This document shows positions 51,261 through 54,741 of a DNA stretch of 64,000 nt, one piece after another. This DNA is from Pedobacter lusitanus (GTDB lineage: Bacteria; Bacteroidota; Bacteroidia; Sphingobacteriales; Sphingobacteriaceae), in the NCBI RefSeq assembly GCF_040026395.1, contig NZ_CP157278.1, forward strand, positions 2,666,001-2,730,000, written 5' to 3'. The translations under genes and the position numbers were made by a program. A model generated the notes under the pieces. The model saw only the letters and a list, made by a program, of their open reading frames with translations. It had not been told where the DNA came from and did not search any database. The first letter of the stretch is position 1. Every line of letters starts with the position of its first letter.

Positions 51261-51337
51261 TTTTGTCCAATCACAATCTTTAATACCGGTCCGGCATTTA
51301 AACTGTGACCTTCATACCGACTGCTCTTTGAATCAAG

Positions 51338-51410
51338 AGCGAAAGACGAGGTTCGAACTCGCGACCTATAGCTTGGAAGGCTATCGCTCTACCAACTGAG
51401 CTACTTTCGC
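51338..51410 (-). tRNA. tRNA-Gly (TCC anticodon)
   Basis: Cloverleaf on the minus strand, acceptor GCGAAAG / CTTTCGC with discriminator T, D loop CTCAGTTGGTAGAGC, anticodon loop CTTCCAA with TCC between ATAGC and GCTAT, T arm GAGTTCGAACCTC. Confidence 0.96.
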
Positions 51411-51429
51411 TTTTATTATTATTATAAAG

Positions 51430-51512
51430 TGGGGGGAGAAGGATTCGAACCTTCGAAGTCTTGCGACAACAGAGTTACAGTCTGTCCCATTTGGCCACTC
51501 TGGTATCCCCCC
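51430..51512 (-). tRNA. tRNA-Tyr (GTA anticodon)
   Basis: Cloverleaf with long variable arm, as expected for a class II tRNA: acceptor GGGGGGA / TCCCCCC with discriminator A, anticodon loop containing GTA (CAGACTGTAACTCTG), T arm GGTTCGAATCC. 83 bases. Confidence 0.96.
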
Positions 51513-51552
51513 ATTTCTTCAAACCGTCACATATAAAATGCAGGTTTAGAAG

Positions 51553-51625
<73 letters not shown>

Positions 51626-51698
51626 TTATTATTATTTATTAAACATTCACAGAACAAACCAACTCTTTATGGGTTAACCCCTGTTCCGAATTGGAATG

Positions 51699-51729
51699 CA
51701 AATCTACAAGAATATTTTATAGTTGCAAA
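51699..51729 (-). promoter_or_regulatory. Canonical promoter of the tRNA-tuf-secE-rpl-rpo block
   Basis: On the minus strand TTTG (51726-51729) and TAGATTTG (51699-51706) are separated by exactly 19 bases, the ideal spacing for the Bacteroidota -33/-7 promoter. The start site would be near 51693, giving a leader of about 65 bases before the first tRNA. The leader includes the palindrome GGGTTAACCC (51671-51680). Confidence 0.75.
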
Positions 51730-51746
51730 ACTATTTTGAAAAAAAA

Positions 51747-51771
51747 ACCAGCAGAATATATTCCGCTGGTT
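51747..51771 (-). terminator. Terminator after hpf
   Basis: CCAGC and GCTGG pair with extra outer A-T pairs, and the minus strand continues with a T run (the A run at 51740-51747). It lies 30 bases past the hpf stop and separates hpf from the tRNA promoter. Confidence 0.7.
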
Positions 51772-51800
51772 TTATATTTAAAATTCCAAAAAATAGAACC

Positions 51801-52148
51801 CTAATAATCAGATACTTCATCAGCGTTTAATACCGCCTTAAGCTCAGAAACTTTTATTCTATTTTTTTCTTTATGTTTTGTGATTTGCTTTTTTAGTGAC
51901 TCAATTGACAAATCCGTCGCTTCTTCGAAAGACTTGCATTGTTCCTTTGCGAACAATATTCCGCCTGGAACCATCAGTTTTATTTCACTTATTTTGTTAG
52001 CCTCATCGTCTACGTTCTCTAATTTTAAATAAACTTCCCCACTTATGATCTGGTCGTGGAACTGCTCCAGCTTATCAACTTTCTTTTGAATAAAGTCTAA
52101 TAATTTGTGATCTGCATTGAAATGGATTGATTGAACTGTAATTTTCAT
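51801..52148 (-). CDS. hpf: Ribosome hibernation promoting factor, HPF/RaiA type
   Basis: A 115-residue protein that binds the decoding centre of inactive 30S subunits. MKITVQSIHFNADHKLLDFIQKKVDKLEQF, EVYLKL and the basic helix FEEATDLSIESLKKQITKHKEK match the family. It lacks the long C-terminal dimerisation domain of long HPFs, so it is the short type. Its start is preceded by AGGAGG with a 5-base spacer, rare in this phylum. It is 15 bases from the xerC stop. Confidence 0.95.
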   Translation of the reverse strand: MKITVQSIHFNADHKLLDFIQKKVDKLEQFHDQIISGEVYLKLENVDDEANKISEIKLMVPGGILFAKEQCKSFEEATDLSIESLKKQITKHKEKNRIKVSELKAVLNADEVSDY

Positions 52149-52153
52149 GTTGT

Positions 52154-52159
52154 CCTCCT
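52154..52159 (-). promoter_or_regulatory. Strong Shine-Dalgarno of hpf
   Basis: On the minus strand AGGAGG, preceded by a run of A, is followed by 5 bases and ATG. This is a textbook SD in an organism whose other genes in the window have none, apart from rpsU. Confidence 0.85.
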
Positions 52160-52163
52160 TTTT

Positions 52164-53048
52164 TTATGCCTTTGGATGGGCCTGTTTATATATTGTTTTT
52201 AATCTTTCTATAGAATTGTGCGTATAAACCTGGGTTGCTGCCAGACTGGCGTGCCCAAGCAACTCCTTGATCGCATTTAAATCAGCTCCCCTGTTCAGCA
52301 GGCTGGTTGCGTATGAATGACGCAGTACATGGGGGCTTTTCTTATCTTGTGTAGATATATATGTCAAATAACTTTTTACAATCTTATATATAAAGACCGG
52401 GTAAACTGCTGTTCCTTTATTAGTAACGAATAAGTCCTCCGTTTTGTTATTAAATTTCTGTAACGATTTCAACTCAATATACTCTTTAAGCTGAATAATA
52501 AGCTGTTTGGTGACAGGAATAATTCTTTCTTTTTTTCTTTTCCCCAAAACCTTTACAGATTCCTGATAAAAATCTATATCTGTTTCTTTCAATCCGAGCA
52601 GTTCAGCCAAACGCATACCTGTACCGAAGAGCATTTCAATAACCATTTTATCACGTACCGAAGGAAAAGTTGTATCGAAGTATTCCCCCGAGTCCAGTAA
52701 ATGATCCAGTTTATCTTCATCTATAAACACCGGTAACCGTTCAGGTGTTTTAGGTGCCCTGATCAAAGACATTGGACTGGTCAGAATAATTTTCCGGCGA
52801 TAAAGGTATTTATAGAACCCACGCAGACTCGATAATTTTCTTCCAATTGAGTTAGCACCAACTTCATCTTCCATCAGATGCACGATATAATCTCTGATAT
52901 GTACGTATTTAGCCTCTTCAGGCTTCATCTCATAAGTTTGTTTAATAAATTCATCAAACTGCTCCAGATCCGTCCGGTAGGCGGTTACAGTATGCGGAGA
53001 ATAGCGCTTCTCGTGCTGAAGATAGTTTAGGTAGGATTCTACAGACAT
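52164..53048 (-). CDS. xerC: Tyrosine recombinase XerC-like
   Basis: A 294-residue site-specific recombinase. The N-terminal SAM-like domain (YLNYLQHEKRYSPHTVTAYRTDLEQF) precedes the catalytic domain with Arg in GTGMRLAELLGL, HVLRHSYATSLLNRG (HxxR), LLGHASLAATQVYTH with the His and the nucleophilic Tyr. The genomic position between rpsU and hpf is conserved in many Bacteroidota. XerC, not an integrase, is the likely role (chromosome dimer resolution); no dif site is seen. Confidence 0.9.
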   Translation of the reverse strand: MSVESYLNYLQHEKRYSPHTVTAYRTDLEQFDEFIKQTYEMKPEEAKYVHIRDYIVHLMEDEVGANSIGRKLSSLRGFYKYLYRRKIILTSPMSLIRAPKTPERLPVFIDEDKLDHLLDSGEYFDTTFPSVRDKMVIEMLFGTGMRLAELLGLKETDIDFYQESVKVLGKRKKERIIPVTKQLIIQLKEYIELKSLQKFNNKTEDLFVTNKGTAVYPVFIYKIVKSYLTYISTQDKKSPHVLRHSYATSLLNRGADLNAIKELLGHASLAATQVYTHNSIERLKTIYKQAHPKA

Positions 53049-53140
53049 TAATTACAATTGTTATCCTGTCAAAGCCGTTTAAATTCAAAGAAGAAGCTAA
53101 GCCGGCTCTAAGAGTGAATGTACGGAATTTTATGCAAAAA

Positions 53141-53172
53141 AAAGCGCCGGTGAAAAAATCCACCGGCGCTTT
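53141..53172 (-). terminator. Hairpin terminator after rpsU
   Basis: The stem AGCGCCGGTG / CACCGGCGCT with a short A-rich loop and a T run on the minus strand lies 29 bases after the rpsU stop and before xerC. rpsU is thus largely a single-gene transcript, though read-through into xerC-hpf is possible. Confidence 0.88.
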
Positions 53173-53200
53173 AAATATTTAAGAACTTAAAAGAATAGAA

Positions 53201-53395
53201 TTAGATCTTTCCTTCAAGGTGCATATTTTCTTTATAAATCGCGTGCTTAACTAATGTACGACGAGCTACAGATTTTTTCTCGTATGCCTGACGGCTACGT
53301 AGTTCTCTCAATACACCAGTTTTTTCAAATTTCTTTTTGAAACGTTTAAGGGCTTTATCAAGTGATTCGCCGTCTTTAATATTAATTATGATCAT
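53201..53395 (-). CDS. rpsU: Ribosomal protein bS21
   Basis: A 64-residue small-subunit protein. IINIKDGESLDKALKRFKKKFEKTGVLRELRSRQAYEKKSVAR is the family core, rich in basic residues. In Bacteroidota bS21, with bS6 and bS18, covers the anti-SD tail of 16S rRNA. The start is preceded by a strong AGGAGG, consistent with autoregulation: low bS21 would expose the anti-SD and raise rpsU translation. Confidence 0.97.
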   Translation of the reverse strand: MIIINIKDGESLDKALKRFKKKFEKTGVLRELRSRQAYEKKSVARRTLVKHAIYKENMHLEGKI

Positions 53396-53407
53396 AACGT
53401 TAAAATA

Positions 53408-53413
53408 CCTCCT
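53408..53413 (-). promoter_or_regulatory. Strong Shine-Dalgarno of rpsU
   Basis: On the minus strand GAGAGGAGGT precedes the ATG with 12 bases between AGGAGG and ATG, a slightly long spacing. Confidence 0.75.
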
Positions 53414-53432
53414 CTCGTTGTTTTAAGGATCG

Positions 53433-53464
53433 CAAAGATAAAACATAAAACCTTATAAAACAAG
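53433..53464 (-). promoter_or_regulatory. rpsU promoter
   Basis: On the minus strand TATCTTTG (53433-53440) fits TAnnTTTG, and CTTG (53461-53464) lies 20 bases upstream as a -33 element with one mismatch. Confidence 0.6.
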
Positions 53465-53465
53465 C

Positions 53466-53505
53466 ACAAAAAAAATCCAGTGTATTTGCACACACTGGAT
53501 TGGTA
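53466..53505 (-). terminator. Terminator of the acyl-CoA dehydrogenase gene
   Basis: ATCCAGTG and CACTGGAT pair around a 10-base loop, followed on the minus strand by a T run. It lies about 65 bases past the stop of the gene and overlaps the far upstream part of the rpsU promoter region. Confidence 0.8.
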
Positions 53506-53568
53506 AAATATATTTGGTTAGAATATGTCTTTTTTGTTGATAATAGCTGTTTTAGATTTAGGTTGCTA

Positions 53569-54741
53569 TTATTTATTTAATATTTCTCTGGCAATTACAA
53601 TTTTCTGGATTTCGGAAGTTCCCTCTCCTATTGTACATAATTTACTGTCACGGTAAAACTTCTCTACTGGGAAGTCTTTTGTATAACCATAACCGCCAAA
53701 AATCTGTACAGCCTCTGTTGCTGCTCTTACTGCAACCTCTGACGCAAAGTATTTAGCCATTGCCGATTCTTTAGTCATTTTTTGTCCACGATTCTTTAAA
53801 TCTGCAGACTGTCTGATCAATAACTCAGCAGCCTCAATTTCAGTAGCCATATCGGCCAGCTTAAAACTAATGGCCTGGAAGCTTGATATAGGCTGACCAA
53901 ACTGATGTCTTTCCTGAGCATAGGCAAGTGCAGCTTCATAAGCTCCTTTCGCAATCCCCAGTGACAGCGCAGCAATAGAAATTCTACCGCCATCCAGCAC
54001 TTTCATCGCCTGCTTAAAACCTTCACCGACATTACCCAGTAAATTGGCAACCGGTACACGGCAGTTATCAAATATCATTTCTGTAGTCTCAGATGCACGC
54101 ATCCCCAGTTTATTCTCTTTTTTACCTGCTGAAAAACCCGGAGTTCCACGTTCAACTACAATAGCTGAAATTCCTTTGGAGTCTCCTTTTTCACCAGTAC
54201 GTACCATAACTACAGCGATATCACCAGATTTACCATGAGTAATCCAGTTTTTCGCACCGTTTAACACATAATGATCACCATCTAAAGTAGCTGTAGTCAT
54301 CATTCTTAATGCATCAGAACCGGTATTAGCCTCAGTTAATCCCCATGCCCCGATCCATTCTGCAGTTGCCAGTTTAGGCAGCCATTTATGTTTTTGCTCT
54401 TCCGTTCCAAAAGCAAGAATATGTCCTGTACATAAAGAATTATGTGCAGCCAGAGATAAACCAACAGATCCGCAGACCTTAGCTACTTCTACAATTACAT
54501 CTACATATTCCTGATAGCCGAATCCCGAACCACCATAAACCTCAGGGACTAATACTCCCATCATTCCCAGCTCACCCAATTTCTTAAAAACCTCAACAGG
54601 AAAAGTTTGTGCCTCGTCCCATTCCATTACATGAGGACGGATATTCTTCTCCGCAAAATCTTTAACCATACTTCTGATCATCAGTTGATTTTCTGAAGTA
54701 CTGAAATTGAAACCTGTATTTTGTGCTAACGTGTCTTGCAT
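53569..54741 (-). CDS. Acyl-CoA dehydrogenase
   Basis: A 390-residue flavoprotein that oxidises acyl-CoA to enoyl-CoA. FAD and substrate motifs: WIGAWGLTEANTGSDALRM, YVLNGAKNWITHG, and the C-terminal QIFGGYGYTKDFPVEKFYRD and IGEGTSEIQKIVIAR, with the catalytic Glu in GEGTSEIQ as in short- and medium-chain enzymes. No partner genes of beta-oxidation are adjacent. Chain-length preference is not readable. Confidence 0.93.
   Translation of the reverse strand: MQDTLAQNTGFNFSTSENQLMIRSMVKDFAEKNIRPHVMEWDEAQTFPVEVFKKLGELGMMGVLVPEVYGGSGFGYQEYVDVIVEVAKVCGSVGLSLAAHNSLCTGHILAFGTEEQKHKWLPKLATAEWIGAWGLTEANTGSDALRMMTTATLDGDHYVLNGAKNWITHGKSGDIAVVMVRTGEKGDSKGISAIVVERGTPGFSAGKKENKLGMRASETTEMIFDNCRVPVANLLGNVGEGFKQAMKVLDGGRISIAALSLGIAKGAYEAALAYAQERHQFGQPISSFQAISFKLADMATEIEAAELLIRQSADLKNRGQKMTKESAMAKYFASEVAVRAATEAVQIFGGYGYTKDFPVEKFYRDSKLCTIGEGTSEIQKIVIAREILNK

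Follow-up and report, generated by a model that had tools for sequence, protein, structure and literature searches.

Results

The locus described here lies in a 64,000-nt stretch of DNA (the window) from Pedobacter lusitanus, the host genome of which is a single 6.05-Mb contig. Read from the minus strand, it consists of rpsU (53201..53395), which encodes ribosomal protein bS21 (64 aa; Pfam PF01165, E = 1.3e-18), a gene for a XerC/XerD-type tyrosine recombinase of 294 aa, hereafter xerC (52164..53048; PF00589 and PF02899), and hpf (51801..52148), which encodes a short hibernation-promoting factor of 115 aa with one S30AE domain (PF02482, E = 4.1e-20). The interval between rpsU and xerC contains an intrinsic terminator with a 14-bp stem and a T run (53141..53172), and a second terminator, with a 13-bp stem and a T run, is located 3′ of hpf (51744..51773), beyond which a run of tRNA genes follows. 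A terminator-like hairpin is also found 5′ of rpsU (53474..53501). All of these features are on the minus strand. An Rfam search of positions 51300-53800 returned only tRNAs.

PF02482 covers residues 3-96 of the 115 residues of the window HPF and is its only Pfam match, which fits a short HPF of the S30AE type. Relatives in the PDB are HPF, RaiA, and YhbH proteins, and on the basis of this homology the protein may be expected to bind and silence ribosomes. The protein shares 100% identity with the HPF of Pedobacter cryoconitis S3M1, and hpf has a single match within its own genome. For the window bS21, the best PDB matches are the bS21 chains of 9i5v and 7jil. The match to 7jil, from Flavobacterium johnsoniae, spans residues 1-57 of both proteins and places a Tyr at position 54 of the window protein, corresponding to the Tyr54 that contacts the 16S tail, which is the one pocket residue compared. 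As a side observation, 9i5v, a solved ribosome entry and the source of the closest bS21 match, also contains a chain named RaiA (9i5v_14, 401 residues), in which residues 8-297 match XerC and residues 307-400 match HPF. By sequence, this chain appears to be a xerC-hpf fusion; a scan of 264 hpf loci for such a frame found none.

An initial annotation of this DNA had pointed to strong Shine-Dalgarno (SD) sequences 5′ of rpsU and hpf, and both are present on the minus strand. Upstream of rpsU, AGGAGG occupies 53408-53413, 12 nt from the ATG that begins at 53395. It is part of an extended SD, GAGAGGAGGTATT (53404..53416), which pairs over 13 bp with the 16S 3′ tail of the same genome (duplex −19.9 kcal/mol). 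This tail, AAUACCUCCUUUCU, was read in three rRNA loci and used for the pairing energies. Upstream of hpf, AGGAGG occupies 52154-52159, and the proposed spacing of 5 nt to the ATG beginning at 52148 is correct. The complete hpf SD, AAAGGAGG (52154..52161), forms 8 bp with the 16S tail (−12.2 kcal/mol) and sits inside the 15-nt gap 3′ of the xerC stop codon. In the predicted fold of the hpf mRNA, the centroid structure leaves the SD unpaired, and the lowest-energy structure pairs just its final GG. The 3′ end of the rpsU SD (GGTATT, window 53404-53407) is complementary to the AAUACC of the genome's own tail.

To place these energies in context, all start codons within the first 40 codons were scored in a window set of 61 ORFs that do not overlap and encode 60 aa or more. 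Two of the 61, hpf and rpsU, reach −9 kcal/mol. The claim that rpsU and hpf alone carry SDs thus stands for the window; genome-wide it does not, as rpsR, rplE, and rplX carry them too. The xerC gene was correctly described as lacking an SD: its start region reaches −5.7 kcal/mol in the window, and an SD is found at the xerC start in only 2 of 119 genomes of the family. The window contains 19 copies of the bare AGGAGG motif against 20.2 expected, which is no enrichment. Across the genome, AGGAGG-N3-13-ATG is likewise not enriched (306 occurrences versus 347 for the reversed pattern), nor is AAGGAGG-N3-9-ATG (75 versus 92 in the control). Among 253 ORFs with a minimum length of 100 aa, taken from the window and 13 sampled 20-kb stretches (a set for which rpsU is too short), −12 kcal/mol is reached by three ORFs in the SD window, hpf among them, and by five in a mock window. 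Strong SDs are therefore rare in this genome and no commoner than in the mock window, and AGGAGG is not common before its genes; had it been common, this would have spoken against the initial proposal.

The strong terminator at 53141-53172 disfavors a single rpsU-xerC-hpf transcript, and rpsU is probably transcribed alone, as is also stated for rpsU of F. johnsoniae (PMC9976891). A hairpin followed by a T run lies between rpsU and xerC in 84 of 101 family loci, as judged by a simple rule and without a shuffled control. Because the terminator sets rpsU apart from xerC-hpf, a control common to rpsU and hpf would act in translation. A search with a Bacteroidota promoter pattern gave 8 matches versus 4.6 expected and nothing clear at rpsU or hpf.

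The hpf SD was then followed through the family, which includes Pedobacter, Mucilaginibacter, Sphingobacterium, and others. An hpf match was found in 150 family genomes (57 + 96, with 3 shared), of which 120 from 21 genera were read. Relatives were scored with the 16S tail of the P. lusitanus genome, in part with a C variant, and lineages with a different anti-SD, such as the Chryseobacterium type described in PMC9976891, could for this reason be missed. The SD that the initial annotation asked to see in close relatives is present at −9 kcal/mol in 119 of the 120 genomes and in 21/21 genera, compared with 0/120 for a mock window at the same loci, and 105 of the 120 reach −12 kcal/mol. The single genome read that has no hpf SD (L052; G115, genus g21) is also one of two without GGAGG. 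The end of GGAGG lies 4 nt from the hpf ATG in 87 genomes and 5 nt in 31. In the 119 genomes for which the distance from the xerC stop to the hpf ATG was placed, it is as short as −4 nt and as long as 97 nt, with 12-20 nt in 113. At the four loci with gaps of 86-97 nt, all from genus g21 (L044, L047, L053, L055), the SD keeps its 4-nt distance from the ATG. Since the distance from SD to ATG is nearly fixed while the xerC gap varies, the motif is tied to the start of hpf. With one representative per genus, positions −9 and −6 are G in 21/21 and position −3 is A in 20/21. Based on these data, the hpf SD is almost certainly a genuine, selected element.

A set of 80 named loci, which overlaps the other loci, has the hpf SD at −9 kcal/mol in 63 cases, including named Pedobacter, Mucilaginibacter, Sphingobacterium, Parapedobacter, Pelobium, Daejeonella, and Albibacterium. 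Mucilaginibacter rivuli (−8.8 kcal/mol) is an example of the named cases in which it is weaker or missing. Of the 101 family loci in which rpsU is visible, 99 have an rpsU SD of −13 kcal/mol or stronger. Two loci of genus g11 (L435, L436) have an odd rpsU leader, GGGGAAAAGAGGTAAAT (−12.5 kcal/mol), beside a normal hpf SD.

Outside the family, at least 178 genomes of the class have an hpf match, and 64 from 50 families were read among the matches listed, usually one or two per family and three in one (f28). Among these, the hpf SD is found in 20 (15 families) and is absent from 44, compared with 5/64 for the mock window (p = 0.0014). GGAGG is present in 18 of the 20 SD-bearing genomes versus 3 in the mock window, and the SD is kept at xerC-hpf gaps of 35, 43, and 62 nt (L078, L071, and L075). 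Named loci with the SD are a Vicingus MAG, UBA7662, and MAGs labelled Flavobacteriales (L229) and Bacteroidales (L231); those without it include Hymenobacter caeli, Salibacter, and most Flavobacteriales-labelled MAGs. A shared distribution of the hpf and rpsU SDs would have supported shared control, and none was found: in the 45 genomes outside the family with rpsU in view, both SDs are present in 2, only that of hpf in 13, only that of rpsU in 4, and neither in 26 (Fisher p = 1.0). The rpsR SD was rejected as a partner as well, since in the 27 genomes matched of 30 it occurs at −9 kcal/mol in 3/18 with the hpf SD and 2/9 without. Six genomes from five families (G347, G289, G242, G190, G163, and G233) have an SD at hpf and at neither rpsU nor rpsR. 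At the position of the rpsU SD examined above, some genomes outside the family have GGTG (4 seen) and others GGTA (2 seen), a difference that may represent covariation with the 16S tail.

Other ribosome-related genes also have SDs. In P. lusitanus, the energies are −14.1 kcal/mol for rplX, −13.5 for rplE, −12.3 for rpsR, −12.0 for rplF, and −11.2 for rpsB. Among the family loci read, −9 kcal/mol is reached by rplE in 30/30, rpsR in 29/30, rplX in 24/27, rplF in 18/30, and rplN in 17/30, and by none of the neighboring ribosomal-gene controls (rpsH, 0/30; rpsN, 0/30; rpsQ, 0/29; rpmC, 0/29). The initial annotation had held that ribosomes with a free anti-SD would preferentially make bS21 and HPF; any such set would have to include more than these two, given that ribosomal protein genes of the family keep SDs too. 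A reading of the frames places the P. lusitanus rpsR, rplE, and rplX motifs within the final codons of the preceding gene. In contrast, wherever the gap could be placed in a family genome with the SD, the hpf SD is found 3′ of the xerC stop, with L062 (4-nt overlap) as the one exception. As it falls in non-coding DNA after that stop, codon content does not explain it.

Discussion

In Bacteroidia ribosomes, the anti-SD is normally hidden in a pocket formed by bS21, bS18, and bS6 (PMC9976891). The relevant sections of that work (McNutt et al. 2023, PMC9976891) report that F. johnsoniae ribosomes lacking bS21 favor rpsU mRNA. They also report that a tuf reporter with AGGAGGU rises more than 2-fold with truncated bS21 and 70% with the Y54A variant, and that in a depletion strain the same reporter is 40% (with inducer) and 70% (without) above wild type. 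SD-less reporters were highly similar across the bS21 backgrounds, and the usual initiation signal of this organism consists of upstream adenines at −3, −6, −12, and −13 (PMC9976891). According to the same sections, an extended SD is needed, with energies below −13 kcal/mol typical of rpsU; SD control in Flavobacteriales, judged from a screen of 200 whole genomes, is apparently limited to rpsU; and some Bacteroidia have moderate SDs at rpsR, rpsB, rplE, rplF, rplX, and other ribosomal genes (PMC9976891). The words hpf and raiA are absent from the main text of PMC9976891, and no paper on an SD at hpf in Bacteroidota was found in the open-licence PMC literature.

The hpf gene resembles F. johnsoniae rpsU, for which autoregulation through ribosomes lacking bS21 has been published, in having a strong SD in an otherwise SD-poor genome, in the sequestration of the anti-SD, and in a ribosome-related product (PMC9976891). 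The differences are that HPF is not a ribosomal protein, that its SD is not associated with the rpsU SD outside the family, and that this SD is short (8 bp, −12.2 kcal/mol, 4-5 nt spacing), whereas the rpsU type is extended. Thus the hpf SD falls short of the −13 kcal/mol given for extended SDs, and that of rpsU in the window (−19.9 kcal/mol) exceeds it. In length, the hpf SD is comparable to the AGGAGGU of the tuf reporter, and in strength it is similar to the moderate ribosomal-gene SDs, which occur in the P. lusitanus genome too (PMC9976891).

Our preferred reading, to which we assign a probability of about 0.5, is that translation of hpf begins through SD/anti-SD pairing and that 30S subunits with a freed 16S tail have the advantage in it, so that HPF rises with incomplete ribosomes. 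As the anti-SD is normally hidden, an SD would help mainly those ribosomes in which the tail is free. Subunits that lack bS21, and whose tail is liberated, would then be preferred on hpf mRNA, and HPF output would go up as incomplete or damaged ribosomes become a larger fraction of the total. It is very likely that ribosomes use the hpf SD. It is probably best used by 30S subunits with a freed anti-SD, and for that reason bS21-poor ribosomes would favor HPF; the analogy to rpsU and to the published SD reporters makes stimulation of hpf by loss of bS21 plausible. The data establish the element and its ability to pair with the 16S tail of this genome; they also show that it is conserved and keeps nearly the same distance to the hpf ATG however far away xerC ends. 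Along with the F. johnsoniae reporter results and the Tyr54 of the window bS21, these findings speak for this reading. Several points count against it: the relevant passages of PMC9976891 demand an extended SD and limit control in Flavobacteriales to rpsU, while the hpf SD is weaker than −13 kcal/mol; the hpf and rpsU SDs show no association outside the family; the hpf SD is missing from one family genome and from 44 of the 64 genomes outside the family; and SDs at some genes related to the ribosome (rpsR, rplE, rplX, and, less regularly, rplF and rplN) may be in use in the family without any regulation.

The last point leads to an explanation that we consider a serious, if lesser, possibility, namely that the hpf SD is functional but constitutive. 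It would raise basal initiation without sensing bS21 and belong to a wider ribosome-related set with rpsR, rplE, rplX, and others. The SD frequencies of these genes in the family fit this explanation, as do the strength of the hpf SD, which resembles that of ribosomal protein genes and not that of rpsU, and the lack of association between the hpf and rpsU SDs outside the family. However, codon use may partly explain the rpsR, rplE, and rplX motifs, located as they are in the preceding coding end, and this does not extend to the non-coding hpf SD. In addition, a constitutive SD would be of little use where the pocket hides the anti-SD (PMC9976891).

Translational coupling, in which ribosomes that end xerC are caught by the SD past its stop and restart on hpf, is suggested by the 12-20 nt between the two genes in nearly all placed family genomes. 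We regard it as unlikely, and the long-gap loci, both in genus g21 (86-97 nt) and outside the family (35-62 nt), disfavor it as the sole reason for the SD. The purine run could instead be a different signal altogether, such as an A-rich initiation region, a determinant of transcript stability, or a protein binding site. The hpf region is indeed A-rich, and upstream adenines usually signal initiation in F. johnsoniae (PMC9976891); the conserved GGAGG, its complementarity to the 16S tail, its near-fixed distance from the ATG and variable distance from xerC, and the tRNA-only Rfam result make this account very improbable. As for chance, the bare AGGAGG string is no more frequent than expected at random, but 119/120 against 0/120 in the mock window refutes it, and we give it practically no weight.

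Returning to preferential use of the hpf SD by ribosomes with a freed tail, a further step would make HPF a second product of bS21-lacking ribosomes. The anti-SD would then act as a sensor of damage to the ribosome, and the amount of HPF made would match the number of ribosomes at risk. We offer this tentatively, as less likely than not. In Bacillus subtilis, RNase R binds the 30S platform at the bS21 site, and bS21 is absent from the complex (PMC10901742). In Staphylococcus aureus, HPF shields ribosomes from RNase R; free 30S subunits are still susceptible, and the strongest shelter is in 70S dimers (PMC8406268). Loss of bS21 would expose the anti-SD on a platform that, without bS21, is the seat of RNase R in B. 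subtilis, and this one event would prompt the cell to make bS21 for repair as well as HPF for shelter. Because RNase R sits at the bS21 site and HPF protects, incomplete ribosomes would need both (PMC10901742, PMC8406268). Together, these systems functionally connect HPF with the loss of bS21 and with the 3′ end of 16S rRNA (PMC8406268, PMC10901742). They are not from Bacteroidota, however, and the S. aureus HPF is the long form, as opposed to the short form in the window, and shelters 70S and 100S ribosomes rather than free 30S subunits (PMC8406268). SD-based control of hpf was not found in the relevant parts of PMC8406268 and PMC10901742.

The published genome-wide screen covered Flavobacteriales and, in the sections concerned, names rpsU as the usual single case (PMC9976891). 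Its near-invariant SD makes hpf a concrete second candidate, in another family, for any genes besides rpsU that may be served by bS21-lacking "specialised" ribosomes. If true, the proposal would link the completeness of ribosomes to hibernation.

Strong SDs were also encountered at a few other genes. Apart from hpf itself and two further sites, 72 of the 75 AAGGAGG sites of the P. lusitanus genome were read, and 14 of them start plausible ORFs of at least 100 aa, among which are, presumably, rpsB, rplF, and a lytic-transglycosylase-like gene. The last, as we take it to be, is a 260-aa gene; in the five genomes of the genus Pedobacter that were read (L248 = G000:C1:2989133-2991145, L308, and L439-L442), AAAAAAAGGAGG is located 3 nt 5′ of the start codon. 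By eye, this gene and hpf are the ones common to this list and to that from genome G048, in which all 40 AAGGAGG sites were read. In 30 family loci, however, its SD reaches −9 kcal/mol in just 12 and −12 kcal/mol in 4, mostly being weaker or absent in other genera, which rules it out as an equal of hpf. In the family genome G075, AAGGAGG pattern counts are somewhat above the control (104 versus 76), and its genus may use SDs more. Finally, a gene of the Pedobacter-genus genome G048 (L300, G048:C1:1922673-1922687), which we assume to encode an RsmH-like 16S methyltransferase, carries a very strong SD, AAAGAAAGGAGGT, with a duplex energy of −18.5 kcal/mol.
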